From positions 1,212,387 through 1,276,386 of the forward strand of contig NZ_FNTX01000001.1 of assembly GCF_900105765.1 (NCBI RefSeq): a stretch of 64,000 bases of DNA, in the 5' to 3' direction. The stretch's first letter is position 1. Each line of letters begins with the position of its first letter. The stretch comes from Ruania alba (lineage in GTDB: Bacteria; Actinomycetota; Actinomycetes; Actinomycetales; Beutenbergiaceae). This document shows, piece by piece, positions 27,738 through 50,308 of the stretch. Under the pieces are notes generated by a model. It was not told the origin of the DNA, did no database searches, and saw only the letters and a program-made list of their open reading frames with translations. The position numbers and the translations under genes are program-made.

Positions 27738-27773
27738 GTGTCCTCCTTGACATCGGATGGCTTGCGTTGCACA

Positions 27774-27787: not shown

Positions 27788-27835
27788 CTCCACCATGCAA
27801 GGGCTGCATGTGCGTGACGTGACGGAGATGAGCTG

Positions 27836-29178: not shown

Positions 29179-29210
29179 CGACCGCCGTGCACGAGAGGAC
29201 AAGCGAAGCG

Positions 29211-31034: not shown

Positions 31035-31058
31035 CCTCAGCGCTGAACGCGCTCACGA

Positions 31059-31099
31059 CGCCATCCCCGGGCCTGTCACGGCTCGGGGATGGCGTTTTT
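31059..31099 (+). terminator. Rho-independent terminator of the fucosidase operon
   Basis: CGCCATCCCCGGG-type stem (31059-31069) pairs with CTCGGGGATGGCG (31082-31094) and is followed by GTTTTTG, a proper T-run, 25 bases after the RraA-like stop. Confidence 0.85.
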
Positions 31100-31241
31100 G
31101 TCGCTGGTGCGGCAGCCGGACCCGACGGTGCGACACAGCCACGCGATGTCCCGCGCACGGGACGGCGTCGAGCCCCACACCCACGGGGCCGGCTTGGCGT
31201 CGGCCGCTACTGTGCCGTCTTCCGGCCGGAGAGCGCACAAC

Positions 31242-31273
31242 GGTGCCCGCTCCCTTGCGGGGGAGCGGGCACC
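31242..31273 (-). terminator. Hairpin after the minus-strand permease operon
   Basis: A perfect 13-base-pair stem GGTGCCCGCTCCC / GGGAGCGGGCACC encloses a six-base loop. It lies 26 bases beyond the stop of the permease gene and probably ends the binding-protein/permease transcript. Confidence 0.7.
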
Positions 31274-31298
31274 GGGGTCTCGGCTGGGCTTGTCAGCC

Positions 31299-33091: not shown

Positions 33092-33094
33092 CGG

Positions 33095-34435: not shown

Positions 34436-34472
34436 GTGTGTCCTCCTTGACATCAAGTGCGTACGCTTCAGA

Positions 34473-34486
34473 GTAAATGGAATTAC
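34473..34486. promoter_or_regulatory. LacI-type operator candidate GTAAATGGAATTAC (copy 2)
   Basis: The same 14 bases as at 27774-27787, again between a -35-like TTGCAG and a -10-like TACTCT on the minus strand, before the second binding-protein gene. The rest of this 190-base gap before lacI shows no gene. Confidence 0.65.
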
Positions 34487-34625
34487 CTAAGGCTGCAAGC
34501 GCGTCGTGGACGTGAGCGCTTCCGTCGGTACAGCGGTGTGGCGTGGCGGGCGAGCCGGCGGCTCGGTGCCGCGCGATTCGCGCGCGAGGGCGACCGGGGT
34601 GGTTGCTACCGACGCGTACCCGCGC

Positions 34626-35627
34626 TCAGAGTGGCTGTACGGAGCTGCGCGGGATGAGCTGTGGTTTCGGGTCCTCGATCGTGGTCTCTCCGGTCGAGGT
34701 GTTCTGGGAGAGGTGCTCGACGGCGGCTATCCCCAGCTCGTGCAGAGGGAGCTTGACTGTCGTCAGTGGTGGCCAGACCGCGTCGGCGTACCAGACGTCG
34801 TGCAGGGTGACGATGGAGAGGTCCTCGGGCAGGCGCGCGCCAAGCAGGTGCAGTTCGGCGAGTGCGCCGATGGCAGCGTTGACATTCGCGACGACGACGG
34901 CGGTCGGCCGGTCGGAGAGGGTCCAGAGCTTCCGAATGGCTGCTCGGCCATCGGTGGCGAGGTAGCCGGCGTCGGTGGCCCACTCGGATCGCGCGCGCAA
35001 GCCGTGAGCGCGCAGGCCGTGGACGAAACCGTCGTGGCGGCGATCTGCCGAGGCGAATCCCGGAACGCCGCCGAGAAAGCCGATCCGGTGGTGTCCGTGG
35101 GCGATCAGATGGTCCACGGCCACCCGGATGCCCTGGGCGTCGTCCAGCACCACGGACGGCAGGTGGACCTGGGGGTCGGTCGAGAGGATGGTCACGACCG
35201 GAACACGCAGCTTCATGAGCTCGGCGCGCTGCTCGTCGCTGGTGGCGGGTGTGGGCTGCAGCAGGACGCCGTCGGTCCGCCCTTCGTCCACCATGCGAGT
35301 GAGCCATCCCGGTGCCTGGTTCGCGGTCTCTGCCCCGGCGACGACGACTTGGAGGTCGCGGCCGAGTGCTGCGCGCTCGATCCCGCCGATCAGCTCGGTG
35401 TACATCGCGCTCGTCGGTTCCGGGGTGACGAGCGTGATCGCTGACTGGAGGTTCATCCGCAGTGCTCGTGCGGCACGGCGTGGGACGTAGTTCAGTTCTT
35501 CGATGGCGCTGAGCACGCGTTGGCGGGTGTCGGACGAGATCCGCAGCGTCGGATCGCCGTTGTACACGCGCGAAACCACGGCAGGTGAGACCCCTGCGCG
35601 CTTGGCAACGTCGTGACTAGCAGGCAC
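34626..35627 (-). CDS. LacI family transcriptional regulator (fucose-like locus)
   Basis: The 333-residue protein has a LacI helix-turn-helix (HDVAKRAGVSPAVVSRVYNG, then RQRVLSAIEELNYVPRRAARALR) at residues 5-57 and a periplasmic-binding-protein-like sensor domain (SAITLVTPEPTSAMYTELIGGIERAA, VDHLIAHGHHRIGFLGG, VVVANVNAAIGAL). The GTG start is supported by AGGAGGG just upstream. It lies upstream of the copy 2 importer operon on the same strand and likely recognises the GTAAATGGAATTAC sites. The inducer is unknown. Confidence 0.87.
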   Translation of the reverse strand: MPASHDVAKRAGVSPAVVSRVYNGDPTLRISSDTRQRVLSAIEELNYVPRRAARALRMNLQSAITLVTPEPTSAMYTELIGGIERAALGRDLQVVVAGAETANQAPGWLTRMVDEGRTDGVLLQPTPATSDEQRAELMKLRVPVVTILSTDPQVHLPSVVLDDAQGIRVAVDHLIAHGHHRIGFLGGVPGFASADRRHDGFVHGLRAHGLRARSEWATDAGYLATDGRAAIRKLWTLSDRPTAVVVANVNAAIGALAELHLLGARLPEDLSIVTLHDVWYADAVWPPLTTVKLPLHELGIAAVEHLSQNTSTGETTIEDPKPQLIPRSSVQPL

Positions 35628-35760
35628 ACGCCCTCCTCATCGGGTAGTGCCGTGATTCTATGTGTCGTTGTTCGTTCCTCGTTGCCGATCCTCGGCCATC
35701 GATAGTGGGCGGTCCAGGTGGAAGCGACTCTGAGCTCGTGTGATGTGGGAGCATCCTCGA

Positions 35761-36777
35761 GTGAGTACCGACCGCCCGGTCCGGATCACGGACGTCGCCG
35801 AGGCCGCCGGCGTGTCCATCGCCACGGTCTCCAGGGTGCTGAACGGATCGAGCACGGTCGACCCGGTGCTGGCCGAACGCGTGCGCTCCGCCGCGCTGGC
35901 CACCCGGTACGTCCCGAACTCGAACGGCCGGGCCCTGCGACGGCAGCGTGCCGACGTCTGGGCCGTGATCGTCTCGGACGTGAAGAACCCCTTCTTCACG
36001 TCCCTGGTCACTGCGGTCGAGCATGTGGCGGTCCGGTCCGGGCACTCGGTGATGTTGTGCAATACCGACGAGCATCTCGACCGGGAGCGCGGATACCTGG
36101 ACGCGGCCATTGCCCAGCGGATGTCCGGCGTGGTGGTCTCGGTGACGTCGGAGGACCACTCGGATCTGACACCGCTGCTCGCTGCCGGGATTCCTACCGT
36201 GGTGGTGGACCGCAGGGTGCACGACTTTGCCGGGGACTCGATCCTCCTGGACAACGAGAAGGCCGGCCGGATCGCGGTGGAGCACCTGCTCGCCCTCGGG
36301 CACCGGGACATCATGTGCCTGGCCGGGCCGTCCGGGGTGAGCACCACCGAGGACCGTCTGGACGGGATGCGCCACGCGCTCGCTGATGCCGATATCCCGC
36401 TGGAGTCGGAGCGGATGGTGCGGACCGATCTGCAGATGGCAGATGCCGAGGCGGCGGTGCGCGCGGCCGTGCAGGGACCGCGCCGACCGGACGCCGTGGT
36501 GGCGATGAACGGCCCCCTCACCGCCGGTGCCTACCGCGGCATCCAACAATCCGGGCTCCGGGTGCCCGAGGAGATCTCTTTGGTGGGCGTGGACGACGAT
36601 ACGTGGACGCAGATGGTGCACCCTGCTGTCACCTTGGTCGCTCAACCGGTGGAGGAGATGGGCACCCTGGCGGCCGAGCGGCTGAATGCCCGAGCCGCGG
36701 ACGAGCACATCGCCCCGGTCCACCTGCTGCTCGAGCCCGAACTCATCGTCCGAGGCACCACCGCACCGCGCCGCTGA
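35761..36777 (+). CDS. LacI family transcriptional regulator (D-arabinan locus)
   Basis: The 338-residue protein starts at GTG 35761 (VSTDRPVRITDVAEAAGVS), preferred over in-frame GTG 35740 because it gives the normal length. The helix-turn-helix ITDVAEAAGVSIATVSRVLNG is followed by the hinge RALRRQRADVW and the sensor domain (VSDVKNPFFTSLVTAVEHVA, VEHLLALGHRDIMCLAGP, VAMNGPLTAGAYRG). It directly precedes the GH172/GH183/GH116 operon on the same strand, whose promoter carries a perfect LacI-type palindrome. It most likely represses that operon until a D-arabinan-derived sugar is present. Confidence 0.87.
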   Translation: MSTDRPVRITDVAEAAGVSIATVSRVLNGSSTVDPVLAERVRSAALATRYVPNSNGRALRRQRADVWAVIVSDVKNPFFTSLVTAVEHVAVRSGHSVMLCNTDEHLDRERGYLDAAIAQRMSGVVVSVTSEDHSDLTPLLAAGIPTVVVDRRVHDFAGDSILLDNEKAGRIAVEHLLALGHRDIMCLAGPSGVSTTEDRLDGMRHALADADIPLESERMVRTDLQMADAEAAVRAAVQGPRRPDAVVAMNGPLTAGAYRGIQQSGLRVPEEISLVGVDDDTWTQMVHPAVTLVAQPVEEMGTLAAERLNARAADEHIAPVHLLLEPELIVRGTTAPRR

Positions 36778-36933: not shown

Positions 36934-36984
36934 TTGACACGACCCGGAGACGGTGCCATTCTCGATCACAGTAAACGTTTACTG
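36934..36984 (+). promoter_or_regulatory. Promoter and LacI operator of the D-arabinan operon
   Basis: TTGACA (36934-36939) and CATTCT (36957-36962) are 17 bases apart, an optimal spacing for a housekeeping sigma promoter. The perfect palindrome CAGTAAACGTTTACTG (36969-36984), with the central CG typical of LacI operators, lies where transcription should start, so a bound repressor would block the polymerase. Confidence 0.8.
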
Positions 36985-37042
36985 AGCGGCGTGCTCCGGA
37001 CCGAAAAGCACCCGTGGCAAAGACTCGATGGAGAGGATCACG

Positions 37043-38131
37043 ATGAGCACTCACCCGGTGCGCTACGGCAGCTATGGATCGAGCCTGCGTGACCTGCCCC
37101 GGCTCCGCGACCATCGCCGGCTGCGCGTGTCCAGCTGGGACCAGACCGGCGGCAACGACGATCGCCTCACGGTCCGTTCCGGCGAGGCCCGCACACTGGC
37201 CGACATCACCGGTGCCGGGTCGATCAACCACATCTGGATCACCGTCGCGCCGGCAGCGGGAGACGGTCCGGACTCCAAGGACAAGGACTACCTGCGCAAG
37301 CTCGTCCTGCGGATCTTCTGGGACGGCGCCGAAACCCCGAGCGTGCTGGTGCCGCTCGGTGACTTCTTCGGCGTCGGCCATGCCCGTACGGTGAACTTCG
37401 CGTCCCTGCCGCTGCAGATGAGCCCGGAGAACGGGAAGGGCCTGAACTCGTTCTTCCAGATGCCCTTCGCCGACGGCGCCCGGCTGGAGATCACCAGCGA
37501 ATGTGAACAGGACGTCTACTTCTACTACTACATCGACTACGACGCCTTCGACGAGCTCGAGGACGGGCTCGGCCGCTTCCACGCGAGCTGGAACCGGGAG
37601 AACCCCACCGACGGCACCTCCGAGGAGGGTCGCAGCAACGCCGAGCACCTGTTCGGTGGCGAGAACACCACCGGCGCGGGCAACTACACGATCCTGGAGA
37701 CGACCGGCCGCGGTCACTTCGTCGGTTGCGTGCTGAACGTGACGAACCTGCGCCACACCAGCGAGTGGAACTGGTATGGCGAAGGAGACGACATGATCTT
37801 CGTCGACGGCGAGTCCTGGCCACCGAGCCTGCACGGCACCGGCACCGAGGACTACTTCAACACCGCATGGTGCCCTTCCCAGAGCTACAGCTCGCTCTAT
37901 CACGGGATCACTCTGCCTGGTGGGGAGAACTGGTCCGGGCAGATCTCGTTGTACCGCTTCCACATCGAGGATCCGGTCACTTTCCGCGAGTCGATCCGCG
38001 TCACCATCGAGCACGGGCACGACAACCGACGCAGTGACGACCTTTCCTCGACCGCCTACTGGTACCAGGCCGAGCCGGCCACCCACCTGTCGCTCCCGCC
38101 GGTGGCCGACCGGCTGCCGAGGCTGGGATGA
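37043..38131 (+). CDS. GH172 (DUF2961) glycoside hydrolase, probable exo-alpha-D-arabinofuranosidase
   Basis: The 362-residue protein matches DUF2961/GH172: WDQTGGNDDRLTVRSGEART near residue 32, GSINHIWIT near 60, VPLGDFFGVGHA near 113, QMPFADGARLEI near 147, and HGTGTEDYFNTAW near 265. Known GH172 enzymes cleave alpha-D-arabinofuranosides or fructan-like furanosides. No signal peptide is present, so it should act in the cytoplasm on imported oligosaccharides. The ATG at 37043 follows GAGAGGA. It is the first gene of the operon and overlaps the GH183 lipoprotein gene (ATGA). D-arabinan specificity is inferred from the presence of GH183 and GH116 in the same operon. Confidence 0.88.
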   Translation: MSTHPVRYGSYGSSLRDLPRLRDHRRLRVSSWDQTGGNDDRLTVRSGEARTLADITGAGSINHIWITVAPAAGDGPDSKDKDYLRKLVLRIFWDGAETPSVLVPLGDFFGVGHARTVNFASLPLQMSPENGKGLNSFFQMPFADGARLEITSECEQDVYFYYYIDYDAFDELEDGLGRFHASWNRENPTDGTSEEGRSNAEHLFGGENTTGAGNYTILETTGRGHFVGCVLNVTNLRHTSEWNWYGEGDDMIFVDGESWPPSLHGTGTEDYFNTAWCPSQSYSSLYHGITLPGGENWSGQISLYRFHIEDPVTFRESIRVTIEHGHDNRRSDDLSSTAYWYQAEPATHLSLPPVADRLPRLG

Positions 38132-39297
38132 AGGGAGCCCGCAGTGTCCGATTCGGTGCCGTCGCTCTCGCTGCGGTCGCGCTGATGGTGACCGCGTGTA
38201 CGCCGGGTCCGGGCGGGGATGCCTCCGGCACACCGGCTGTGCCGTCGGGGACCCCGGCCGATGGTGAGTTCCTGATCACGGGTATCGAGAACGTCACCCA
38301 GGTCGCCCAGCTCACCGGACCCGACTCTACGATCAACGACACCGAGGCAGTCGCGGTGGCCGGCACCGACCTCGGGTCCATGTTCAACGACGGCGAACGC
38401 ACCTACGTCGTCTTCGGCGACACCTTCGGCACCCGCGAGCCGGACGCCTTCGGTGGTGGCGGTGGCAACTGGCGCTCGAACGCGCTGGCCTGGACCCCTG
38501 ACGACGACCCCACCGATGGGATCACGTTCGAGGACTGGGCGAGGGACGACGTCGGACTGGCGCTCGAGGTGATCCCCGGCGAGCACGATGCCAACAACGG
38601 TGAGGGAGAGGTGACGAAGATCCCCACCCACGGGTTCGTCGTCGAGGATGCCCTCTACCTGCAGTACATGTCAGTGAATTTCTGGGGCGAGGCCGGGCAG
38701 TGGGACGCCAACCACGCCGGGCTCGCCAGGTCCACCGATGACGGCGCCACCTGGGAGACCCTGGACGATCCGCAGTGGCCGGGGGACTCCGGCTTCGTGC
38801 AGGTCTCCGCGGCGCACGTGGCCGAGGAGGGTGAGGACTACCTGTACCTCTGGTCCATCCCCTCCGGGAGGTTCGGCGGCGTGCAGCTGATGAAGGTGCC
38901 TGCCACCACCGATGCCGTCGAAGACCTCGGTGCCTACGAGTACTTCGCGGGTACCGACGCCGACGGAGGGCCTCTCTGGTCGCAGGAGATGGGCGAGGCG
39001 GAGACGATCGTCGATGCGCCCGTCGGCGAGATCTCCGTGATGTACCACCCCGAGCTGGACCGATGGTTGATGAGCACACTGCGCAACGAGGACGCGGTCT
39101 TGTTCGAAGGGCTCACCCCGTGGGGCCCGTGGAGCCAGCCGCACACGATCAGCACCCAGGCCGAGAACCCCGGTCTGTACAGCCCCTACCTCAATCCGCG
39201 CTACGTGAGCGACGACGGCAGCACGCTCTATTTCTCGCTGTCCCTGTGGGGGCCATACAACGTCTTCTGGTACAGCGCCGATCTGGTCACTCAATAA
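38128..39297 (+). CDS. GH183 (DUF4185) lipoprotein, probable endo-D-arabinanase
   Basis: The 389-residue protein has a signal peptide ending in lipobox VTAC (Cys24) and then a DUF4185 five-bladed-propeller-type domain: AGTDLGSMF (Asp81), YVVFGDTFGTREP (Asp98), GNWRSNALAWTPDDDPTDGI, and QWDANHAGLARSTDDGATWE. DUF4185 proteins are now GH183, endo-acting alpha-D-arabinofuranases on mycobacterial arabinogalactan and lipoarabinomannan. Asp81 and Asp98 are the best candidates for catalytic residues (inference). As a lipoprotein on the cell surface it would cut polymer outside the cell and supply the importer encoded next. It overlaps GH172 by four bases. Confidence 0.85.
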   Translation: MKGARSVRFGAVALAAVALMVTACTPGPGGDASGTPAVPSGTPADGEFLITGIENVTQVAQLTGPDSTINDTEAVAVAGTDLGSMFNDGERTYVVFGDTFGTREPDAFGGGGGNWRSNALAWTPDDDPTDGITFEDWARDDVGLALEVIPGEHDANNGEGEVTKIPTHGFVVEDALYLQYMSVNFWGEAGQWDANHAGLARSTDDGATWETLDDPQWPGDSGFVQVSAAHVAEEGEDYLYLWSIPSGRFGGVQLMKVPATTDAVEDLGAYEYFAGTDADGGPLWSQEMGEAETIVDAPVGEISVMYHPELDRWLMSTLRNEDAVLFEGLTPWGPWSQPHTISTQAENPGLYSPYLNPRYVSDDGSTLYFSLSLWGPYNVFWYSADLVTQ

Positions 39298-39340
39298 CAC
39301 CACCCGACTCATCGACGAGTCACCCATCAAGGAGGATGAG

Positions 39341-40684
39341 ATGCGAACCACCCGAAGAATGGCCGGCGGCCTGGCCGCCGTGGTCGCGGCCGGTCTCGCA
39401 CTGGCTGCATGCTCAGGAACACCTGAGGGCCCCGACAATGCCGGAGGTGGCGAGGATGTGCCCGAGGGTGCCACCGAGGTGACGTTCTGGCAGACCCAGT
39501 TCACCGACGAGGAGAACGAGTGGTATGAGTCGATCGTCGACTCCTACAACGAGTCCCAGGACGACGTGCACGTCTCGCTCACCGTGGTTCCCGGCGACGC
39601 CTGGGAGCAGCGGATGACCGCCGCGCAGGCAGCCGGAAACGCACCGGACGTGCGCACGATGAACTATGGCGACATCCGCGACGCCGCACGCACCAGCCAG
39701 ATCGTTCCGCTGACGGACCTGATCAGCGAGGACGCGTGGGGTGACGTGCAGGAGAACGTGCTGGAATCGGTCTCCTCCGACGGCGAACGCTACGCCTATC
39801 CGATGCTGGTGGAACCCTCTGCGGTGCTCTACTACCGCACCGACCTGTTCGAGGACGCGGGCCTGGACGGGCCCCCGACCTCGTGGGACGAGCTGATCGA
39901 CTACGCCAATCAGCTCACCGACGACCAGGTGTTCGGTATGCGGCTCGCGCAGACCTCGGTGGACATGTCCTGGTCCACCTGGGGTTACCAGTGGAACGTG
40001 GCCGGCCACCTGCCGATCAGCGAGGACTGGTCCGAGCCGGCGGCGAACGAGGACTTCGCCCCGCTGCTGCAGGCGTACCAGGATCTGTTCGACTCCGGTG
40101 CGCTGCCTCCGGGGGACGGGATCGGCTACGCCGACGCGACGCCCTACGGCGAGGGCGAGTTCGCGATGATGGCGAACGGTTCATGGGCGGCCAGTCAGCT
40201 GCTGGCCGACTACCCCGAGATCGCTGAGGTCACCGAGGTAGCCGCGATGCCCAGCTTCAGTGGCGAACCGGGCGAGACCACCGCCACGCTCGGCGGCTGG
40301 ACCTGGGTGGTCGACGGCAACAGTGAGGTGACCGAGGAGGCCGCCGGCTTCATCGAGTGGTCCCTCGGTGGTGACACCGCGAACGTGGTGCCGTTCTTCG
40401 AGGCCACGGTGTTCTCGAAAGTCTCCCCACGCCAGTCGGTGGCGGACGCGATCGCCGAACTGCCGGACGTGGACTCGGTGAACCCGTGGAACGCGACGAT
40501 CCAGGAGGACATCGTTCCGTTTGCTCAGCAGGAGCCTGCGTACCCGTGGAACGTCTCCCTGGCGATGGGTGAAGCGATCGAGGCGGCGATGCAGGGCACC
40601 CCGGTCGATGAGGCACTGGCCACTGCGAACGACAAGATCGCCACCGAGATCGCCAACTCCGAGCTGGCGGGCACCGGATCCTGA
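39341..40684 (+). CDS. Sugar ABC transporter substrate-binding lipoprotein (D-arabinan locus)
   Basis: The 447-residue family-1 solute-binding protein has a lipobox LAAC (Cys24), an acidic linker, and SBP_bac_1 features (VTFWQTQFTDEENEWYESIV, RYAYPMLVEPSAVLYYRTDLF, GEFAMMANGSWAASQL). AAGGAGGATGAG precedes the ATG. It is unrelated in detail to the duplicated pair at 26-34 kb. It sits between the GH183 lipoprotein and two permeases, so it probably captures D-arabino-oligosaccharides released at the surface. Confidence 0.9.
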   Translation: MRTTRRMAGGLAAVVAAGLALAACSGTPEGPDNAGGGEDVPEGATEVTFWQTQFTDEENEWYESIVDSYNESQDDVHVSLTVVPGDAWEQRMTAAQAAGNAPDVRTMNYGDIRDAARTSQIVPLTDLISEDAWGDVQENVLESVSSDGERYAYPMLVEPSAVLYYRTDLFEDAGLDGPPTSWDELIDYANQLTDDQVFGMRLAQTSVDMSWSTWGYQWNVAGHLPISEDWSEPAANEDFAPLLQAYQDLFDSGALPPGDGIGYADATPYGEGEFAMMANGSWAASQLLADYPEIAEVTEVAAMPSFSGEPGETTATLGGWTWVVDGNSEVTEEAAGFIEWSLGGDTANVVPFFEATVFSKVSPRQSVADAIAELPDVDSVNPWNATIQEDIVPFAQQEPAYPWNVSLAMGEAIEAAMQGTPVDEALATANDKIATEIANSELAGTGS

Positions 40685-40742
40685 CTCCCCGGTCGGGTGC
40701 CGTCGCGGCGGCACCCGACCACCATCGCGAGGAGGCGGTGGC

Positions 40743-41681
40743 ATGACCACGACTGAGACACCCGTCCCACGACGGGCGCCGACCCTGCCGAACGGGCGCC
40801 GGCGGCCCAAGCACAAGGACAACAAGATCGCGTTCGCGATGCTCGCCCCGGCGGTGATCCTGCTCAGCATCTTCGTGATCTGGCCGTTGGTCTACGCCTG
40901 GGTGGTCAGCTTCTACCAGTGGAGCTTCTACGAGGACTCGATCTTCGTGGGGCTGCGCAACTTCCGCATCGTGCTGGAGGATCCGGTGTTCTGGGACTCC
41001 ATCGGCCGCGGGCTGATGTTCTCAGGGATCACCGTGCCGGCGATCATGCTCATCGCCTTCGTGTTCGCCAACCTGGTGAAGACGATGAGCGCCCGGATGG
41101 CCACGGTGCTCAAGGTGAGCATCTATATCCCGGCGGTCATCTCCTTCGTGATCGCCTCCATCGTGTTCGTCCTGATCTTCGAGTACCGCCAAGGCCTGCT
41201 GAACTACCTGGTTAGCTCCTTCGGTGGGTCCGACATCGCGTGGATCGGCAGCGCCGATACGGCCCTGCTCGCCATCTCCGTCCCGGCGATCTGGATCGGC
41301 CTGGGACTGGCGTCGCTGATCATGCTCGCGGGCCTGCTGGATATCCCGGAGAGCTACTACGAGGCGGCCGAGATGGAAGGCGCCAACTGGTTCCAGCGCA
41401 CGTTCTTCATCACGATCCCGTTGATGAAGAACATCCTGCTCTATGTCCTGGTCACCACCTTCGTGGTCACCATCCAGCAGTACGAGCTGCCCCTGGTGAT
41501 GACCCAGGGCGGACCCACCCAGTCCACCTTGCTGCCGAACCTGCTGATCTTCCAACGGTTCACCAACGACACCTACCTGGGATACCCGATCGCGGCCGCA
41601 CTGCTGCTCTTCCTGGTACTCGGCGGAATCAGTCTCGTGATCTTCAAGCTCATCAACTCCGAGAAGGCGGTGGACGGCTGA
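40743..41681 (+). CDS. Carbohydrate ABC transporter permease (MalF type, D-arabinan locus)
   Basis: The 312-residue permease has a basic N-terminus (RRRPKHKDNK), six predicted helices and the EAA loop SYYEAAEMEGANWFQRTFFITIPL near residues 206-229 (cited in part). The ATG at 40743 follows GCGAGGAGGCGG. Its stop overlaps the next ATG (TGATG). No ATPase is encoded in the operon. Confidence 0.9.
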   Translation: MTTTETPVPRRAPTLPNGRRRPKHKDNKIAFAMLAPAVILLSIFVIWPLVYAWVVSFYQWSFYEDSIFVGLRNFRIVLEDPVFWDSIGRGLMFSGITVPAIMLIAFVFANLVKTMSARMATVLKVSIYIPAVISFVIASIVFVLIFEYRQGLLNYLVSSFGGSDIAWIGSADTALLAISVPAIWIGLGLASLIMLAGLLDIPESYYEAAEMEGANWFQRTFFITIPLMKNILLYVLVTTFVVTIQQYELPLVMTQGGPTQSTLLPNLLIFQRFTNDTYLGYPIAAALLLFLVLGGISLVIFKLINSEKAVDG

Positions 41682-42604
41682 TGGCCGCGCTCCCCACCCA
41701 GACAGCACCAGCTCCCGACGGCGGCCCGTCCGCAGGTGCACCCCTCGCCCGACGCAGCTGGTACCGCCCCTCGTCCCGTTCCGGAGGGCCCGCCTCCTTC
41801 GTGCTGCGGTACCTGCTCTCGGCCGCCATCATCCTGGCGGCGCTGTTCCCGCTCGCCTGGATGGCGATCTCCGGGTTCAAGGCCCGCAACGAGGTGGTCA
41901 CCTCACCGTTTCAGTTCTTCCCGGACGTATGGATGCCGGAGAACTACGCGCAGATCCTCGCCGATCCCGGGTTCACCCGAGCGCTCGCAGTCTCCTTCGC
42001 CGGGGCTGTCGCCTTCTCCACCCTCACCCTCGCGGTGAACTCGATGGCTGCGTACGTCTTCGCACGCCTGGACTTCGCATTCAAGAACGTGCTCTGGCCA
42101 GCCGTGCTGATGACCATGTTCATCCCCCAGATGGCGATCCTGATCACCTCCTACATCGTGGTCACCAGGATGGGGATGCTGAACACGTTCTGGGTGCTGC
42201 TCGTGCCGGGAGCGGCCTCGGCGGTGCACGTATTCTTCATCCGGCAGTTCTACCTCGGCATTCCCACCTCGTTGGAGGAGGCAGCGCTGATCGACGGCGC
42301 CGGACGGTGGAAGATCTTCACCCACATCTTCCTGCCGATGTCCAAGCCGGTGTTCGTCGTGGTGGGCATCACCTCGTTCCTGGTGTTCTGGAACGCCTAC
42401 GTGTGGCCGATCCTCACGATCACCGAACCGGACTCCCCGCTGACCCAGATCCAGCAGTACCTGGCCACGTTCCGGTCCGAACGGCGGGTCGAGTACGGGT
42501 TGCTGCTAGCGGGATCCACCTTGGCCGCCACCCCGGTGATCGTGCTGTTCCTGATCTTCCAGCGCTACATCATCTCCGGGATCCGGATCTCGGGGATCAA
42601 GTAG
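41681..42604 (+). CDS. Carbohydrate ABC transporter permease (MalG type, D-arabinan locus)
   Basis: The 307-residue permease has a Pro/Ser-rich tail of about 40 residues, six predicted helices, and the EAA loop SLEEAALIDGAGRWKIFTHIFLPMSKP. The C-terminus FQRYIISGIRISGIK is typical of CUT1 MalG-type subunits. It starts on the last base of the MalF stop, and the GH116 ATG follows its stop without a gap, so all are tightly coupled. Confidence 0.9.
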   Translation: MAALPTQTAPAPDGGPSAGAPLARRSWYRPSSRSGGPASFVLRYLLSAAIILAALFPLAWMAISGFKARNEVVTSPFQFFPDVWMPENYAQILADPGFTRALAVSFAGAVAFSTLTLAVNSMAAYVFARLDFAFKNVLWPAVLMTMFIPQMAILITSYIVVTRMGMLNTFWVLLVPGAASAVHVFFIRQFYLGIPTSLEEAALIDGAGRWKIFTHIFLPMSKPVFVVVGITSFLVFWNAYVWPILTITEPDSPLTQIQQYLATFRSERRVEYGLLLAGSTLAATPVIVLFLIFQRYIISGIRISGIK

Positions 42605-45196
42605 ATGGGTGTGGACATCCCCCTCGTCCCCGAGTCCGCCCGGGCGATCGCCCACACTGACGCCCGGCACGTGGCGCTCCCGCTCGGCGGGATCGGCACG
42701 GGAAACCTGGCGCTGGGCGCCGATGGGGCGCTGAAGCAGTGGCAGCTGCACCATCTCGGCAACCACCGGGGCGAGCTGCCCGGTGCGATGTTCGCGCTCC
42801 GAGTGGCCCAGTGGGAGCCCCCGTCGAACGAGATCCGGGCGCTGCAGGCACCTCCGGCACCGCCGGAGCAGACCCGTACTCCGATGGTCAACGACGATCA
42901 CGTGCCTCCCTGGCAGCGCGAGCTGCTCACCCGGCACCGCGGCGTGCAGGGCACCACCTTCCGTGGCATCTATCCGGCGGGCAGGATCGACTACCACGAC
43001 GACACCCTCCCGGTGACGGTGAGCCTGGAGGCGATGACCCCGCTGGTGCCGTTGGACACGGCCCGCAGCTCCTTGCCGACGGCGCTGTTCACCGTGCGGA
43101 TCACGAACCGTTCCGAGGTGCCCACCCATGGGTGGATCGGCGCCGCTATGCAGAATCCGCTGGGCGCCGATGGCGCCCTCCCTCCCGACGGCGTCCGCTC
43201 ACCCGGGTACGGCGGCAACACCAACCGCACCGATCGCCGTCGGGACTGGACGGCCCTGGTGATGGAGAACCACGCCCTCGCCCCCGACCATCACGGGGCC
43301 GGGCAGGTGGTGCTCGCCGCCGACGCACCAGGCACCACGGCGCTGCCGGCGTTCACCAGCGGTGACCAGTTCCTCGCCTTCCTCGGCAGCCGGCAACCGT
43401 TCGGGCCCCGCGATTGGGCGCACATGCCGGTCTCGATGGCGGACCCGCAACCCACGGGCACCTGGTCGGCGGCTGGCCCGAGCCCGGAGGGCAGCACCTG
43501 GAACGGGGGACTGGCCGTGCCCTTCCATCTGGAGCCCGGGCAGAGCACACAGCTGCGGGTCGCCCTGACCTGGCACCTGCCCAACCGGTATGCGAACTTC
43601 ACCCAGTTCGGCGGCATCCGGCCGGAGTGGGGCGCCAGCCGGTACCTGCTCGGCAACCACTACACGAACCAGTTCGACGACGCCCTCGACGTCCTCGACA
43701 CGGTCACCGAGCAATGGGAACCGCTGCACCGGGACACGGCCACCTGGATCCGCACGCTCACCGAGAGCTCGCTCGGCGAGCAGGCGGTCGAGCATCTCGC
43801 CGCGCTGCCGGCGGTGATCCGCAGCCCGAGCTTCTTCCGCACCGCCGACGGCCGGTTCTACGGTTTCGAGGGCGTGCAGGGCGAGTCGACCACCATGTGG
43901 TCCGGGGACGTGGGCGGTTCGTGCCCGCTGAACTGCACCCACGTGTTCACCTACGAACAGGTGCTGGCGAAACTGTTCCCGGACCTGGAGCGGAACATGC
44001 GGGAGAGCGACTTCGACGTGCTGCAGGCACCGGACGGGTCGATCCCGCACCGGCTGATCCTGCCGACCGCACTCGGTCAGCTCTGGGACCGACCGATCGG
44101 CGGCCCGGACGAGCCCGCCCTGGACGGGATGCTCGGCACCGTGCTGAAGACCTACCGAGAAGTCCGCACCGGAGCGGGCACGGCCTGGTTGGCCCGGTAC
44201 CGCCCGAAGGTGGAGCAGTTGATGCGCTACGTGGCCGGGCGGTGGGACCCCGAGGGAACCGGCGTGCTGCACGGGATTCAGCCCTCCACCCATGACATCG
44301 ATCTCGCCGGAATCAACTCGTACATGGGCACGCTCTGGCTCGCGGCGTTGCGCGCTGCGGAGGAACTGGCGCTGCTGGAGCGTGACTCGGAGGCGGCCGC
44401 GCACTGGCGGAGCACTTTCGAGCAATCCTCGACCGCCTACGACCAGGCGCTGTTCACCGGCGAGTACTACCGCCAGGTGCTCGAGGATGGTGACCCACGC
44501 GACTTCCAGTGGGGTGCCGGGTGCCTCGCCGATCAGCTCCTCGGCCAGTGGTGGGCGCACACGCTCGAGCTGGGCTACCTGCTGCCGGCGGAGCACGTGC
44601 GCACAGCGCTGCAGGCCGTGGTGCGCCACAACCTGCGCACCGACTTCACCGGATTCACTCACCCGTATCGAGTGTTCGCCGACGGCGACGAAACCGGTCT
44701 GGTGGTGTGCACCTGGCCGCACGGCGGGCGCCCGGAGGTCCCCACCCGGTACGCGGACGAGGTGTGGACCGGGGTGGAGCAGCAGGTCGCGGCGCACTGC
44801 CTGATGGAAGGGCTCGATGCCGAGGCCCAGCAGATCCTGACCGCTCTCTGGTCGCGCTATGACGGACGCCGCCGCAATCCGTACAACCAGGTGGAGTGCG
44901 GCGACCACTACGTGCGTGCCCTGTCCGGCTGGAGCGTGCTCGAAGCCCGTACCGGGCAGCGGTGGAACGCTGCCACCGGTGTGCTGCGGATCAGCCTCCC
45001 ACCGCCTGGAGGTGCCTGGCCGGTGCTGCTCGACACCGGATGGGGGAGCCTGCGGAACACCGACGACGGCGCTCACCTGGAGTGCCGTCACGGCTCCGTG
45101 GAGGTGGCCCGGCTCGAGCTGATCACGCCTGGCGGCGTGACGACATGCGGACCGGTGCGGCTGACGGCCGGCGAGGGACGTCGTCTGGGGCCGTGA
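42605..45196 (+). CDS. GH116 family glycosidase, probable exo-beta-D-arabinofuranosidase
   Basis: The 863-residue protein has the N-terminal GH116 beta domain (LPLGGIGTGNLALGADGALKQW near residue 25, through TWHLPNRYANF near 325) and the C-terminal (alpha/alpha)6 DUF608 catalytic domain (WSGDVGGSCPLNCTHVFTYEQ near 435, STHDIDLAGINSYMGTLWLAAL near 560, YADEVWTGVEQQVAAHCLMEGL near 720). GH116 includes glucosylceramidases and beta-glucosidases; one bacterial branch is an exo-beta-D-arabinofuranosidase that removes the beta-linked termini of mycobacterial arabinan. The operon context favours that activity. No signal peptide, so cytoplasmic. Confidence 0.87.
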   Translation: MGVDIPLVPESARAIAHTDARHVALPLGGIGTGNLALGADGALKQWQLHHLGNHRGELPGAMFALRVAQWEPPSNEIRALQAPPAPPEQTRTPMVNDDHVPPWQRELLTRHRGVQGTTFRGIYPAGRIDYHDDTLPVTVSLEAMTPLVPLDTARSSLPTALFTVRITNRSEVPTHGWIGAAMQNPLGADGALPPDGVRSPGYGGNTNRTDRRRDWTALVMENHALAPDHHGAGQVVLAADAPGTTALPAFTSGDQFLAFLGSRQPFGPRDWAHMPVSMADPQPTGTWSAAGPSPEGSTWNGGLAVPFHLEPGQSTQLRVALTWHLPNRYANFTQFGGIRPEWGASRYLLGNHYTNQFDDALDVLDTVTEQWEPLHRDTATWIRTLTESSLGEQAVEHLAALPAVIRSPSFFRTADGRFYGFEGVQGESTTMWSGDVGGSCPLNCTHVFTYEQVLAKLFPDLERNMRESDFDVLQAPDGSIPHRLILPTALGQLWDRPIGGPDEPALDGMLGTVLKTYREVRTGAGTAWLARYRPKVEQLMRYVAGRWDPEGTGVLHGIQPSTHDIDLAGINSYMGTLWLAALRAAEELALLERDSEAAAHWRSTFEQSSTAYDQALFTGEYYRQVLEDGDPRDFQWGAGCLADQLLGQWWAHTLELGYLLPAEHVRTALQAVVRHNLRTDFTGFTHPYRVFADGDETGLVVCTWPHGGRPEVPTRYADEVWTGVEQQVAAHCLMEGLDAEAQQILTALWSRYDGRRRNPYNQVECGDHYVRALSGWSVLEARTGQRWNAATGVLRISLPPPGGAWPVLLDTGWGSLRNTDDGAHLECRHGSVEVARLELITPGGVTTCGPVRLTAGEGRRLGP

Positions 45197-45241
45197 CACC
45201 TGCATGACCACGGCGGACTGCACCGCCGAGAAGGAGAGCAC

Positions 45242-46705
45242 ATGCGCATCATCTACCTGGACATCGACTCGCTCCGACCGGACCACCTGGGCGCCTACGG
45301 GTACCCGCGTCCGACCAGCCCGAACCTGGACGCTCTCGCCGCCCGCAGCGTGGTGATGGGCCAGGCCTTCGGCTCCAGCTCACCGTGCGTGCCCTCTCGC
45401 GCATGCACGCTCACCGGGCAGTTCGCCATCCGGCACGGGGCGCTCACGCACTGGGGCCCCGGCGGAACGCTCCGGTTCCCCGGGCATGCACACGACTACG
45501 ACCCGCACCGGCCGATGCTCACCCGCCTGTTGCGCGAGCACGGGTACGAGACCGTCTCCTTCTCCTCGTTCCTGGACCGGCACCAGGCATTCTGGTTCGG
45601 CGCCGGGTGGTCGCAGATGCACACGCACACCCTCAAGCAGGGTGACGAGAACGCCGATGAGGTGAACGGCGCCGTCATCGACTGGCTCCGCGCGAACATC
45701 CAGGACACGCCCGATCTGTTCCTGCACCTGCAGTACTGGGACCCGCACCGCAACTACACGATGCCGACGGCGTGGCTGGAGCGCACCGGCCCGCCCCACC
45801 TGCCGTCGTGGCTCACCGAGGACGAGGTCGATCGGCACCGGGGGATGTGGGGGCCGTTCACCCCGCGCCACCTGTTCCCGTTCCGCACCGATGCAGCCAG
45901 TCCGGTGCCCGCCATGCCCGGGCAGATCACCTCGTTGGACGACGCGGCCCAGTTCATCAACGGGTATGACGCCGCCGTGGCCTTCCTGGACGATCAGCTC
46001 GGGCAGCTCTTCGCCGTGCTCGACGAGCTCGGCGTGCTGGAGGAGACAGCCGTCGTGGTGACCGCCGACCACGGGGAGGCGCTCGGTGAGGAGGGTGTCT
46101 ACGGCGACCACACCTCGGCTGCCGAGGTGGTGCACCACGTGCCGATGATCGTTCACTGGCCCGGCGTCGAACCAGGGCGCAGTGACGCGCTGGTGTATCA
46201 GCTCGACATGGCGGCCACGGTCTGCGAGATGCTCGGGATCGCGGTGCCAGGCGGATGGGACTCGCGTTCGTTCGCCTCGGCGTTGCGGCAGCCGGGAGGC
46301 GCTGCTGGACGTGACCGTCTCGTCTGGGACCACGGCCTGTACTCCGCCCAGCGCGTGGTGCGCACACGCGAATGGTTGTACCGCCGGAGCTACCACCCGG
46401 GCCTGTATGCCGCCGAGGACGTGGGGCTGTTCGCCGTCGATGACCGGGCTCAGCTGCGGAACATGGCGAATGAGCAGCCCGACGTGGTCGCTGAGCTCGC
46501 CGCGCACCTGGAGGACTGGCGGACCGCGCATCTCGCCCGGTCAGGTGCGCCGGACCCGATGGACGAGATTCTCGGCACCGGTGGGCCGTTCCGGTACATC
46601 CAGCCGGGTCCGTGGGCGCGCTATCTGCGGGAGACGGGCAGTAGCCAGGAGGCGGACCGCATGGAACGCGTGATTGCCGAGACCGGGCTCGACCGGGTGG
46701 GCTGA
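45242..46705 (+). CDS. Type I sulfatase (formylglycine-dependent)
   Basis: The 487-residue enzyme has Asp7 and Asp9 in YLDIDSLRPDHLG as metal ligands, the sulfatase motif CVPSR (Cys49 to Arg53), where the cysteine is converted to formylglycine, and VVTADHGEALGEEGVYGDHT carrying further metal residues. The ATG follows GAGAAGGAGAGC. There is no signal peptide, so it would act on imported molecules; the maturation enzyme must be elsewhere. It is the last gene of the D-arabinan operon, 45 bases after GH116. Why a sulfatase should be needed for D-arabinan is unclear; phosphonate or phosphodiester cleavage is an alternative for this superfamily. Confidence 0.88.
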   Translation: MRIIYLDIDSLRPDHLGAYGYPRPTSPNLDALAARSVVMGQAFGSSSPCVPSRACTLTGQFAIRHGALTHWGPGGTLRFPGHAHDYDPHRPMLTRLLREHGYETVSFSSFLDRHQAFWFGAGWSQMHTHTLKQGDENADEVNGAVIDWLRANIQDTPDLFLHLQYWDPHRNYTMPTAWLERTGPPHLPSWLTEDEVDRHRGMWGPFTPRHLFPFRTDAASPVPAMPGQITSLDDAAQFINGYDAAVAFLDDQLGQLFAVLDELGVLEETAVVVTADHGEALGEEGVYGDHTSAAEVVHHVPMIVHWPGVEPGRSDALVYQLDMAATVCEMLGIAVPGGWDSRSFASALRQPGGAAGRDRLVWDHGLYSAQRVVRTREWLYRRSYHPGLYAAEDVGLFAVDDRAQLRNMANEQPDVVAELAAHLEDWRTAHLARSGAPDPMDEILGTGGPFRYIQPGPWARYLRETGSSQEADRMERVIAETGLDRVG

Positions 46706-46805: not shown

Positions 46806-48428
46806 TTGCGCAGACTTGCCGCCCTGATCGTGTGCGTGGTGCTCGCGACCGTGTCGGGATGCACCGGTTCGATGGAGATCGACTCCGGCCCGAGTTCGCC
46901 CCCGCCGGAGCCTCGCCCGGCAGCGGAAGCACGGCTGCCGGAGCAGGCGAGCACCCTGGTGCCGTCCGAGGATCCGACGTCACTGGCGCTCGCCGCCAGC
47001 GACGCCCTGTTCGAGGTGGCCCGCGTGGTGGTCCTCGCTCCGGTCGGCGACGAGGCTGCCATGGCCCGAGCGGCGTCACTCGCGATGGCGCTCGGGGTGC
47101 CGGTCCTGCCGACCGGGGCTGACGACCCGGCCGTGGGGCAGGAGCTGCTCCGGCTCTCGACCACCACACTGCTCCCGGTCGGTGATGTCGACCTCACGTC
47201 CTTCGACCTCACCTCGATGAATGTACAGCCGGCGCCCGCGGACGACGGCGGGGTGACCGACCTTCTCGGCGTCGAGACTGCGGGAGCCGGTGCTGATGCA
47301 TCTGCTGACGTGGCCACGCTGGCCTCGCTGGAGCAGGGACAGCTGATGGCGGGCCCAGGCGGGACGCCCGCAGCCGAGGGGCACATGCCGCAGATACTCC
47401 CGGGCGAACCGGTGGACGGGCTACGCGTGCTGGCCGATGGAGACCAGGCCCAGCTGGCCGCCGTCGGGACGGCCCGCGCAGCGGGGGCCACGGTGACCGT
47501 GGTGGACGGGGACCCGCGCGCCTCGGTGGACCAGTTCGACGGGGCAGCACAGCCCGACGCCATCCTGGGGCTTGGTGTGAGCTTCGGTGACCCGGAGACG
47601 TTCGCCTGGCAATCCGAGACGGCCCTGACCGGTGTGCAGCTTCCGGGCGGCGGTCAGTTCGCTTTCGACGGCACGCGTTATGTGGGCCTGTACGGGACCC
47701 CGCACACGGAGGTGCTGGGCGCACTCGGCGAGCAGGATCTGGGGGCCACTGTGGATCGTGCGGAAGAGCTGGCCACGTCCTACCAGCAACATACTGACGA
47801 CGTTGTCGTGCCGACTCTGGAAGTGATCGTCACCGTGGCGGCCAGCGCGGCCGGAGCGGATGGGAACTATTCCAACGAACTGGCACCCGAGCGGTTCGTC
47901 CCACTGGTCGAGGCTGCGGCGGAGGCGGGGCAGTACGTGGTGCTGGACTTCCAACCCGGGCGATCGACGTTCCTGGAGCAGGTGGAACAGTACGCCGACC
48001 TGCTCGCCTATCCGCACGTGGGAATCGCGCTCGACCCCGAGTGGCGTCTCGAGCAGGACCAGGTTCACCTGGAGCAGATCGGATCGGTCGGCATCGATGA
48101 GGTGAACGCTGTGATCGAGTACATCGCTGATTTCGTCCAGGAGCGCCGGTTGCCGCAGAAGATCGTGGTGTTGCACCAGTTCCGGACCAGCATGATCACC
48201 GACCGATCGGAGCTGCAGACCGAGCGGCCTGAGGTGGAGGTGGTGATTCACGTGGACGGCTACGGCACACCGGAAGCGAAGGAATCGACCTGGCGCACCG
48301 TGCGCGCGGATGCTCCGGATGGCGTGTACTGGGGGTGGAAAGTGTTTCTCGACGAGGACGATCCGCGCCTTCGGGCAGCCGAGGTGATGCAGGTCGATCC
48401 CGTCCCGGACTTCGTGAGCTACCAGTGA
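46806..48428 (+). CDS. Lipoprotein with cell-wall-binding-like and C-terminal barrel-like regions
   Basis: The 540-residue protein starts at TTG 46806 behind GGGGGGAG; the signal peptide ends in lipobox VSGC (Cys19). Residues about 70-300 contain repeats reminiscent of cell wall-binding repeat 2 (VVVLAPVGDEAAMARAASLAMALGVPVLP). From about residue 320 on, strand-helix units with YVVLDFQPGRSTF, HVGIALDPEWRL and PQKIVVLHQFRTSMI look like a TIM-barrel hydrolase-like fold, but I cannot name a family or catalytic residues. The stop overlaps the metallophosphoesterase gene (GTGA), so the two probably work together at the cell surface. A -10-like TAGACT lies at 46746-46751. Confidence 0.65.
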   Translation: MRRLAALIVCVVLATVSGCTGSMEIDSGPSSPPPEPRPAAEARLPEQASTLVPSEDPTSLALAASDALFEVARVVVLAPVGDEAAMARAASLAMALGVPVLPTGADDPAVGQELLRLSTTTLLPVGDVDLTSFDLTSMNVQPAPADDGGVTDLLGVETAGAGADASADVATLASLEQGQLMAGPGGTPAAEGHMPQILPGEPVDGLRVLADGDQAQLAAVGTARAAGATVTVVDGDPRASVDQFDGAAQPDAILGLGVSFGDPETFAWQSETALTGVQLPGGGQFAFDGTRYVGLYGTPHTEVLGALGEQDLGATVDRAEELATSYQQHTDDVVVPTLEVIVTVAASAAGADGNYSNELAPERFVPLVEAAAEAGQYVVLDFQPGRSTFLEQVEQYADLLAYPHVGIALDPEWRLEQDQVHLEQIGSVGIDEVNAVIEYIADFVQERRLPQKIVVLHQFRTSMITDRSELQTERPEVEVVIHVDGYGTPEAKESTWRTVRADAPDGVYWGWKVFLDEDDPRLRAAEVMQVDPVPDFVSYQ

Positions 48429-50308
48429 CCAATACAACAACGCCTCCGGCAGAGCCGGAATCGCACGACGAGAATGACGGGGCACCCGCCGAGCGCCGTG
48501 GGTGGTGGCACCGGCTGCGTCCGATGACCCGCCGCACGGTGCGAGCCGGGTTTGCCTTCGTGGCGGCCGGACTGATCGCCGGGGTGCTCGGGATGCTGAC
48601 GGCGAGCTACACCGGGTCCCTCGGACCCCATGCCGCTGACTACTCGGTACGTCTCAACGGTGAGGTTCGGGTGGACATGGGCCCGCTCGGGGCACTGATC
48701 GTGGACTCGCCGCTGCCGGCCCAGCTTGGGGTGGAGGTGCTGGTCAAGGAGATCCCGGTCGAGCTGAGCGATCCGGAGGCGAACCCGGTGGCCGGCCTGA
48801 CCGCGGACCTGTCCAGCTACACGCAGTTCCTCGCCAACCCGCAGGCTGCGATCGACGATGCCGCCCAAGGGCTGATCACGGATGCTCTGGGCCGGTGGGT
48901 GCTGATCTGGACGACGTTGCTGGTGCTGGTGGCACTGGGGAGGCTCGCCGCGCACGGTGTGCTCCGTGACGCGTTCCGTAGCGCCTGGGCACGGACCGGC
49001 GTCCCTGCACTGAGCATCGCGCTCGCCGTGGTGGTGGCTGGGGTGCCACTGATCGAGCTCACGCGCCCATCAGGGGGGAGCGGGCGGACGTCGGCGATCC
49101 TGGCCGGAACGCCGCTCGAGGACGCGCGCATCACGGGGCGCCTGGCCACGCTGGTGGACCACTACGGCGGCTTCGTGGTGGAGGCTGTGGACGAGAACAC
49201 TGCGTTCTACGAGGCTGCTCGGCAGAACCTGGTCTCGGCTTTCGAAGCTGATCCAGAGCCGACCGGACCCACAGCACCACCGGAGCCCGCCGACATCGAC
49301 GGTGCCGACGTGGATAGCGGTGCGGACACCGACGGCGGTGCGGACGGCGTTGGTGTCGACGGAGCCGGCGACGACGGGGCGGGCGGACAGGAAGCCTCAG
49401 CGCCACCGACGGACGATGCCCAGGACGAGGCGGAAGCCGCGAGCGAGGGCCCTGCCGAGGATGAGCCGACGGCGACCGGGGAACCCGCTGAGAACGAGGA
49501 GGCCGCCGAGACGCCGGACGAGGATGGCATCACCACCAGCCTGGTCGTGAGCGATCTGCACTGCAATGTGGGAATGGCTGACGTGATCGGTGCCGCGGTG
49601 GCGGGCTCCGACGCTGAGGTGGTGCTGAACGCGGGGGACACCGTGATGGGTGGTACGTCCGTGGAGTCCTACTGCGTGAACGCCTTCGCCGCCGGGATCC
49701 CCGATGACGTCCCGATGGTGGTGGCCGACGGGAATCACGATTCGCGCACCACCACCGAGCAGGAGCGATCCAACGGGTGGATCGTCCTGGAGGGGGAGCC
49801 GGTGGAGGTGGCCGGTCTGCGCATCCTGGGCGACACCGACCCGACCCTCACCTCGCTCGGGGCGCCGACGCGTCCGCAGCGGGACGAGACAGTGAATGCC
49901 ATGGGCAACCGGCTCGCCCAGCAGGCATGCGAGCTGGAGGAAGCAGGTGACGGCGTGAACCTGCTGCTGGTGCACAGCCCGTATGCAGGACGACAGGTGG
50001 TGGAAGCAGGGTGCGCCCCGCTGAGTATTTCGGGCCACCTGCACCGGCAGATCGGCCCCCGTCAACTGGGATGGGGTGTGCAATGGGTGGTGCCCAGCAC
50101 GGCAGGCGCGGGGAGTGGGACACCGACGATTGGGCCGCTCAACAACGAGGCAGTGATGATGGTGCTCCGTTGGGACACCGAGACCGGACTGCCGTTGGAG
50201 TATCGGATGATCACGATCGGCACCGACACCAGTGCACTGCTCTCGGAGTGGTTCCCCTTCCCGGAGCAGCCCACCGAGTACACCGAGGTGTCGGTCGACC
50301 AAGAGTAG
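48425..50308 (+). CDS. Membrane-anchored metallophosphoesterase
   Basis: The 627-residue protein starts at GTG 48425, overlapping the previous stop. A membrane helix (about residues 41-65), an outside loop, two more helices (about 158-180 and 195-220), and an acidic Asp/Gly/Glu-rich linker (about 280-365) precede the phosphoesterase domain with the metal motifs DLHCN, NAGDTV, DGNHD, LVHSP and SGHLHR. The dimetal site appears complete. The domain should face outside, like the lipoprotein encoded before it. The substrate may be a phosphodiester of the envelope; unknown. Confidence 0.82.
   Translation: MTNTTTPPAEPESHDENDGAPAERRGWWHRLRPMTRRTVRAGFAFVAAGLIAGVLGMLTASYTGSLGPHAADYSVRLNGEVRVDMGPLGALIVDSPLPAQLGVEVLVKEIPVELSDPEANPVAGLTADLSSYTQFLANPQAAIDDAAQGLITDALGRWVLIWTTLLVLVALGRLAAHGVLRDAFRSAWARTGVPALSIALAVVVAGVPLIELTRPSGGSGRTSAILAGTPLEDARITGRLATLVDHYGGFVVEAVDENTAFYEAARQNLVSAFEADPEPTGPTAPPEPADIDGADVDSGADTDGGADGVGVDGAGDDGAGGQEASAPPTDDAQDEAEAASEGPAEDEPTATGEPAENEEAAETPDEDGITTSLVVSDLHCNVGMADVIGAAVAGSDAEVVLNAGDTVMGGTSVESYCVNAFAAGIPDDVPMVVADGNHDSRTTTEQERSNGWIVLEGEPVEVAGLRILGDTDPTLTSLGAPTRPQRDETVNAMGNRLAQQACELEEAGDGVNLLLVHSPYAGRQVVEAGCAPLSISGHLHRQIGPRQLGWGVQWVVPSTAGAGSGTPTIGPLNNEAVMMVLRWDTETGLPLEYRMITIGTDTSALLSEWFPFPEQPTEYTEVSVDQE

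Follow-up and report, generated by a model that had tools for sequence, protein, structure and literature searches.

The window analysed here, a stretch of 64,000 nucleotides from Ruania alba (contig NZ_FNTX01000001.1, positions 1,212,387 to 1,276,386), contains a compact gene cluster which, judged by its sequence, we believe with good confidence to be a LacI-controlled operon for the utilisation of D-arabinan, a glycan of the cell walls of mycobacteria and related bacteria. The logic of such operons was already described in 2023, when a pathway of cutting outside the cell, import and trimming inside was reported for Microbacterium arabinogalactanolyticum (Shimokawa et al. 2023, PMC10509167), and the window holds a version of it that is built of sister-clade enzymes. 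Enzymes of the families GH183, GH172 and GH116 are brought together with a sugar importer and a regulator in one cluster. The features of the cluster are these:

35740..36777, + strand: LacI-family repressor (Pfam LacI and Peripla_BP_3; alternative start 35761)
36934..36962, + strand: putative promoter, TTGACA (36934-36939), 17 bp, CATTCT (36957-36962), found by reading; TTGACA invariant in three species
36969..36984, + strand: putative LacI operator, the perfect palindrome CAGTAAACGTTTACTG, directly 3' of the -10 box
37043..38131, + strand: GH172 (DUF2961), predicted exo-alpha-D-arabinofuranosidase of the Cys class, without signal peptide (longest frame from 37028)
38128..39297, + strand: GH183 (DUF4185) lipoprotein, predicted endo-D-arabinanase, orthologue of MIAR_33320 (Pfam, residues, lipobox)
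39341..40684, + strand: sugar-binding lipoprotein of an ABC importer (Pfam, lipobox; 41% identical to MIAR_33310)
40743..41681, + strand: ABC permease A (Pfam)
41681..42604, + strand: ABC permease B (Pfam)
42605..45196, + strand: GH116, predicted exo-beta-D-arabinofuranosidase, without signal peptide (Pfam, residues, fold; sister clade of ExoMA2)
45242..46705, + strand: sulfatase-family hydrolase with a CVPSR motif, without signal peptide (Pfam, motif)

An earlier note on this DNA had read a set of genes on one strand, running from LacI through GH172, the GH183 lipoprotein, the binding protein, two permeases and GH116 to the sulfatase. A Pfam scan bears this out, assigning every one of these tightly spaced genes: LacI, DUF2961 (290 bits), DUF4185 (277 bits against a curated cut-off of 39.5), SBP_bac_1, BPD_transp_1 twice, Glyco_hydr_116N with DUF608, and Sulfatase. 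The coupled stops and starts that the note described are present at three of the six junctions: GH172 and GH183 overlap by 4 bp (ATGA), the permeases have one base in common within TGATG, which sets the start of permease B at 41681, and permease B and GH116 abut. The other three junctions are merely close, with gaps of 43 bp (GH183 to binding protein), 58 bp (binding protein to permease A) and 45 bp (GH116 to sulfatase). The note's interval opened at 36934, the first base of the TTGACA box, and misses the LacI gene, which ends at 36777. Its proposal that only GH183 and the binding protein are exported agrees with a crude pattern script, which found lipoboxes in these two (VTAC and LAAC, respectively) and none in GH172, GH116 or the sulfatase, the five proteins checked. 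No ATPase gene for the importer lies within the cluster.

The GH183 protein is very probably an endo-D-arabinanase, as predicted from its sequence relatives and conserved residues. Among sequence matches in the structure database the solved relatives are two EndoMA1 entries alone (186 and 184 bits). The nucleophile, the acid/base and the third carboxylate of EndoMA1 are all kept (D33, D51 and E243, corresponding to D81, D98 and E301 in the window protein), as are four of five further ligand residues (R198, W138, L292 and Y293, corresponding to R248, W186, L350 and Y351). Identity over the aligned parts amounts to 57% with MIAR_33320, 38% with EndoMA1 and 24% with EndoMA2, where MIAR numbers were given to proteins by gene order. 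EndoMA1 has a CBM-like domain at its C terminus, for which the window protein is not long enough. In a tree drawn up without mycobacterial and Dysgonomonas GH183 it falls into the MIAR_33320 clade, apart from the EndoMA1 and EndoMA2 rows. MIAR_33320 is induced by D-arabinose and by wall extract (PMC10509167).

For the GH116 protein the residues and the modelled fold point to an exo-beta-D-arabinofuranosidase, and we very probably have to do with such an enzyme. Its best sequence match in the PDB is ExoMA2 with 361 bits; chains of the beta-glucosidase TxGH116 score 87-90. Residues E431, H446, R483 and D557 of ExoMA2 are E422, H446, R483 and D564 here, and these four subsite -1 residues are identical in all 51 aligned rows (duplicates among them); R483 and H446 mark positions that differ in TxGH116 (PMC10509167). 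The best 18 PDB matches of an AlphaFold model are two ExoMA2 structures (TM scores 0.81/0.82 and 0.81/0.81), followed by 16 of TxGH116 (0.65-0.67/0.73-0.75, the best of these 16 having 0.67/0.74). A loss of the nucleophile, suggested by a Ser in the pairwise phmmer alignment, was considered and rejected, as multiple alignments keep the Glu and place an insert behind it.

The GH172 protein keeps both catalytic glutamates (E252 and E274), and a gating position bears on its specificity. The choice between fructose and arabinose has been ascribed to Gly299 of alphaFFase1 versus Asn253 of ExoMA1, the Asn side chain being stated to block the 1-hydroxymethyl group of fructose (PMC10509167). The window protein has C282 at this position, and Cys is also found in BACUNI_00161 and in DgGH172c, which is active on p-nitrophenyl-alpha-D-arabinofuranoside, arabinogalactan and lipoarabinomannan (PMC10115798). 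A Cys side chain would, we infer, block the 1-hydroxymethyl group too.

In an alignment of 92 rows, eight of them without the column, the gating residue is Gly in five of five rows beside GH32. Of the 57 rows beside GH183, 40 have Asn, 17 have Cys and none has Gly; the 22 rows with neither partner in the stretch (Ala and Ser in 7 each, Asn in 4, Asp in 3, Cys in 1) form a weak class because the stretches vary in length from about 4 to 64 kb. Stricter merging reduced 182 reading frames to 76 sequences with the column (11 frames lack it) and gave the same picture: Gly in four of four beside GH32 (six genomes, with the GH32-linked GH172 of genome G002 included), 36 Asn, 16 Cys and no Gly in the 52 beside GH183, and, in the 20 without partner, Ala in 7, Ser in 5, Asn in 4, Asp in 3 and Cys in 1. 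By this contrast of Gly with Cys or Asn, GH172 genes for fructan can be told from those for D-arabinan, which could be of use in re-annotating the family. In a tree made by a quick method, for which the tool warned of long branches, the clade of the window protein (support 94) has 16 rows, all but one of them GH183-linked, and the GH32/alphaFFase1 clade is separate (support 99). The second GH172 gene of G002 and of G004 belongs to the GH32-linked branch.

The window's own genome (G000, 4.83 Mb) has no ExoMA1-type GH172 inside the cluster; one lies elsewhere, at G000:C2:481519, beside a GH78 gene and a BNR_4 protein. This second GH172, of the Asn class, stands in a gene run (locus L147, 9457-19342, G000:C2) with the GH78 rhamnosidase, the BNR_4 protein and a permease, and raises the question of D-arabinofuranose (D-Araf) units in a rhamnose-bearing glycan.

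The closest described system is that of M. arabinogalactanolyticum JCM9171 (our loci L052 and L149), whose genes follow the order isomerase, GH116, FGGY kinase, LacI, GH172, SDR-like, DUF4185, EndoMA1 and, after further genes, EndoMA2 and then, again after others, permeases, binding protein and GH183; this agrees with the published numbering MIAR_33170-33320. The window shares with it the set of GH183, GH172, GH116, binding protein, two permeases and LacI, a syntenic block of GH183, binding protein and permeases in the same order, and an exported endo-enzyme with exo-enzymes that lack a signal sequence (PMC10509167). It differs in having one GH183 rather than four, a GH172 of the Cys class that is 33% identical to ExoMA1, and a GH116 from the sister clade with an insert. 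A sulfatase is added, the isomerase and kinase are missing from the cluster, which makes the locus a variant of the Microbacterium type, and there is no second DUF4185 protein in the window (G004 has one beside LacI). The polysaccharide utilisation locus PUL42 of Dysgonomonas gadei likewise directs enzymes of GH183 and of GH172 at D-arabinan (Al-Jourani et al. 2023, PMC10115798) and has Cys at the gating position of DgGH172c; unlike the window, it is a Bacteroidetes locus, and its GH183s belong to the EndoMA2 clade (PMC10509167). The alphaFFase1 operon of Bifidobacterium dentium resembles the window in its LacI, DUF2961/GH172 and ABC importer and in enzymes without secretion signal, but has a GH32 partner, the gating Gly and alpha-fructofuranosidic substrates (Kashima et al. 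2021, PMC8605356).

The three enzyme families also travel together. We searched 396 genomes of the order with the window proteins at E <=1e-20, a threshold that misses distant GH183 such as EndoMA2, and found GH183 in 25, GH116 in 27 and GH172 of any type in 66 (23 of these with GH183). GH116 is present in all 25 GH183 genomes; for the two that have it without GH183, G008 and G524, the assemblies are incomplete (89% and 73%, respectively). GH183 is present in 16 of the 17 genomes with window-type GH116 (at least 876 bits; next match 409) and in 14 of the 15 with window-type GH172 (at least 599 bits; next match 260), the exception being G354. Fisher values run from 1e-37 to 7e-18, with shared ancestry ignored. 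In a scan of named genomes, relatives of the GH183 gene marked 40 loci, mostly from Microbacterium and otherwise from Occultella, Agromyces, Phytoactinopolyspora, Dactylosporangium, Paenibacillus and Chloroflexota bins; all three transporter proteins were matched in 36 of them. The enzymes of G004 are 95% (GH172), 93% (GH183) and 92% (GH116) identical to those of the window.

The D-arabinan function that the earlier note had proposed is supported because the three enzymes pass tests of residue and context and the alternatives fail. Its enzyme set is that of the published pathway (PMC10509167), and both outcomes it had named as refuting came out the other way: GH172 is not of the fructan kind, and a beta-glucosidase GH116 was rejected on residues, a far higher bit score to ExoMA2, and a predicted fold nearest to ExoMA2. 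In family trees GH172 stays out of the fructan branch, and each of the three enzymes stands in a sister clade of the characterised ones, none inside a clade with a member tested according to the papers cited here.

Several points weigh against the D-arabinan reading, among them the reach of the search and the disregard of ancestry just given. Genome G354, 97% complete, carries a Cys-class GH172 and no GH183 match, so that this class also occurs apart from D-arabinan clusters. Within the exact enzyme clades no tested member is known to us. At the position of EndoMA1 P141 the window GH183 has an Ala (10 of 91 rows, against Pro in 80), and the orthologue MIAR_33320 was not soluble when expressed in E. 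coli (PMC10509167). The insert region of the GH116 model (residues 424-438) has a pLDDT below 50. Finally, the Microbacterium FGGY kinase has no close relative in the genome, the best match being 34% identical. As an aside, the gene in G354 (L278, 9916-10992) is 72% identical to that of the window.

If the system acts on D-Araf, its natural food could still be some other glycan than the mycobacterial wall, such as the D-Araf of Gram-negative O-antigens or pili. This sugar is reported from Pseudomonas pilins and from a Stenotrophomonas O-antigen (PMC8605356), and four of the five GH172s studied by Al-Jourani and colleagues cleave pilin oligosaccharides (PMC10115798). That said, the ExoMA2-type residues of GH116 suggest beta-D-Araf ends, which in mycobacterial arabinan are assigned to the non-reducing side (PMC10509167), and GH183 and GH116 co-occur across genomes. 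We therefore consider another glycan unlikely, and infer that the walls of mycobacteria and their relatives are the food.

The sulfatase is an addition to the known set of genes, and it might take part by removing a sulfate (or phosphodiester) from imported oligosaccharides before the exo-enzymes act. It lies 45 bp behind GH116 on the same strand, with a purine-rich GAAGGAG before its start. Formylglycine sulfatases carry a C-x-P-x-R motif, here CVPSR, and the genome encodes a member of the formylglycine-generating enzyme family (259 bits). The protein lacks a signal peptide. Its base composition gives no sign of foreign origin (GC3 is 0.887 for sulfatase and GH116 alike), and it is one of six sulfatase matches in the genome. 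No homologue was found in the relatives' loci examined; despite the 92-95% identity of its three enzymes, G004 has about 285 bp at this position instead. Across 296 genomes of the phylum a single homologue, at 42%, stands among unrelated genes, and the remaining listed matches in other genomes score about 84 bits or less. No paper joining a sulfatase with arabinan and lipoarabinomannan was found, judged by titles and the beginnings of abstracts. On this balance a working role for the sulfatase seems unlikely to us.

It is quite unlikely that the GH116 clade has another exo specificity (a beta-glucosidase, a beta-xylosidase or one for a different cap), leaving GH183 and GH172 as the sole enzymes acting on D-arabinan. 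Such a shift could be read from the tree, where a 33-row clade stands beside 17 rows with ExoMA2 (duplicates included), from the 9-residue insert behind the nucleophile that sets this clade apart from ExoMA2, and from an identity to ExoMA2 of 35-39% over the aligned parts. Against it, the four subsite -1 residues are invariant, as given above, and the two GH116 types substitute for each other beside like GH183 and GH172 types in different genomes.

A very doubtful idea would tie these peculiarities together: a decorated D-arabinan might be imported, its ester (sulfate or phosphodiester) removed by the sulfatase, with the Cys-class GH172 and the insert-bearing GH116 forming a second tool set whose linkage preferences are unlike those of ExoMA1 and ExoMA2. 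If true, this would mean a form of D-arabinan in nature that has yet to be described. That GH172 is instead an alphaFFase1-like alpha-D-fructofuranosidase in a cluster for fructan or caramel-sugar use is scarcely tenable: its score to alphaFFase1 (279 bits; BACUNI_00161 299, DgGH172c 274) does exceed that to ExoMA1 (125 bits), but the gating residue is Cys rather than Gly, there is no GH32 partner and the clade lies apart from the GH32-linked branch.

Taken as a D-arabinan operon, the cluster suggests the following course of events. The lipid-anchored GH183 would cut alpha-D-Araf chains at the cell surface, and the lipoprotein-dependent ABC importer, with an ATPase encoded elsewhere, would take in the oligosaccharides. 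In the cytoplasm GH172 would remove alpha-linked and GH116 beta-linked terminal D-Araf. The L-fucose-isomerase-like enzyme whose gene lies at G000:C1:116565 might isomerise the released D-arabinose, and phosphorylation might fall to one of the several FGGY kinases. LacI would sit on a palindrome just 3' of the promoter until sugar releases it. The 2023 pathway would thereby be extended to the family of Ruania and Occultella; G000 falls in the same family group as Occultella, which NCBI labels place in Ruaniaceae, and neither genus is named in the main text of PMC10509167. Sister-clade enzymes in all three slots would suggest themselves as tools for the analysis of arabinogalactan and lipoarabinomannan from mycobacteria.

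The fate of D-arabinose appears to differ between relatives. The cluster itself holds neither a D-arabinose isomerase nor a kinase; the isomerase at G000:C1:116565 shares 73% identity with its counterpart in the Microbacterium locus, and 83-84% with one from a GH183-bearing locus of Phytoactinopolyspora. We surveyed 18 genomes, 16 of them with the GH183 system. An isomerase at least 72% identical to that of G000 is found in eight of the 16 (G000, G002, G003, G004, G005, G007, G016 and G039), G016 also having an SIS protein of 39%. The other eight (G010, G013, G014, G017, G018, G020, G021 and G023) have no orthologue and carry instead, in the operon, an SIS protein (at least 65% alike) adjoining a ribokinase-like kinase; two of them show weak Fucose_iso_C matches (L080 and L081) unlike the isomerase of G000. 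The SIS protein scores best with the arabinose-5-phosphate isomerases GutQ/KdsD and with KpsF/GutQ, and the kinase with ribokinase, all under curated cut-offs. Of the two genomes without the GH183 system, G006 has the isomerase and G001 lacks it.

The replacement of an isomerase by an SIS protein and a kinase predicts a phosphorylation-first entry into D-arabinose metabolism and suggests a kinase-first route in these eight relatives; as the split follows genera, one or two events may account for it. No paper on such a route was found among those listed, again judged by title and start of abstract. SIS and ribokinase-like genes stand directly upstream of GH172 in L140 (Occultella, 12329-13875; SIS gene 13252-13875, PfkB kinase gene 12329-13255), L144, L276, L141, L142, L145 and L146. 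A third arrangement is perhaps seen in L280 (15391-17137, G675), where an SIS gene (61-62%) lies beside a Dak1-domain kinase and GH116.

The control region suggests that the operon is under LacI control through the putative operator at 36969-36984. G004 has an orthologue of the LacI gene at the corresponding position (86% identical, 305 amino acids). When the window is aligned with two congeneric species the mean column identity is 70%, and three stretches are fixed: TTGACA, which is invariant in the three species (window, G004 and G002) with differing flanks, CAGTAAACGTTTACT, conserved in G004 and G002, and GGAGAGGATC, upstream of the start codon. The GH172 start is most likely 37043 rather than 37028, because a putative ribosome-binding site, which G004 and G002 also keep, would run into the first ATG. 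Within one mismatch, the 14-base core AGTAAACGTTTACT has its sole site in the whole genome before GH172. With up to three mismatches, operator-like sites occur in seven of 38 stretches (the window and 37 loci scanned): before GH172 in the window, G004 and G002, a further one in L034, and, in G010, G018 and G021, 37-62 bp upstream of the SIS gene that opens the corresponding gene run (2-3 mismatches). As for the promoter, CATTCT has only three of six matches to the -10 consensus, and a simple promoter scanner reported no promoter, with 0.8 expected. A terminator scan gave four terminator-like sites, with 2.6 expected, and none at the operon ends.

On the 3' side of the operon, positions 46806-50308 of the window encode a lipoprotein that matches no Pfam family, followed by a protein with a metallophosphatase domain. 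Both also stand beside GH116 in G002, G004 and G008, and Occultella keeps the lipoprotein only; they are probably old neighbours.

On the other side a second sugar cluster (26394-35627) adjoins the D-arabinan operon. It has two binding-protein genes on the - strand that are 85-88% identical (26394-27959 and 33095-34456). These flank two genes of the + strand: one for an alpha-L-fucosidase, split into two frames that overlap (27836-28468, 28465-29178), and one for a dehydratase of the enolase superfamily (28929- or 29211-30374). Two permeases and a LacI gene of this cluster are on the - strand. The DUF4185 protein of G004 is encoded on the side that corresponds to this second cluster.

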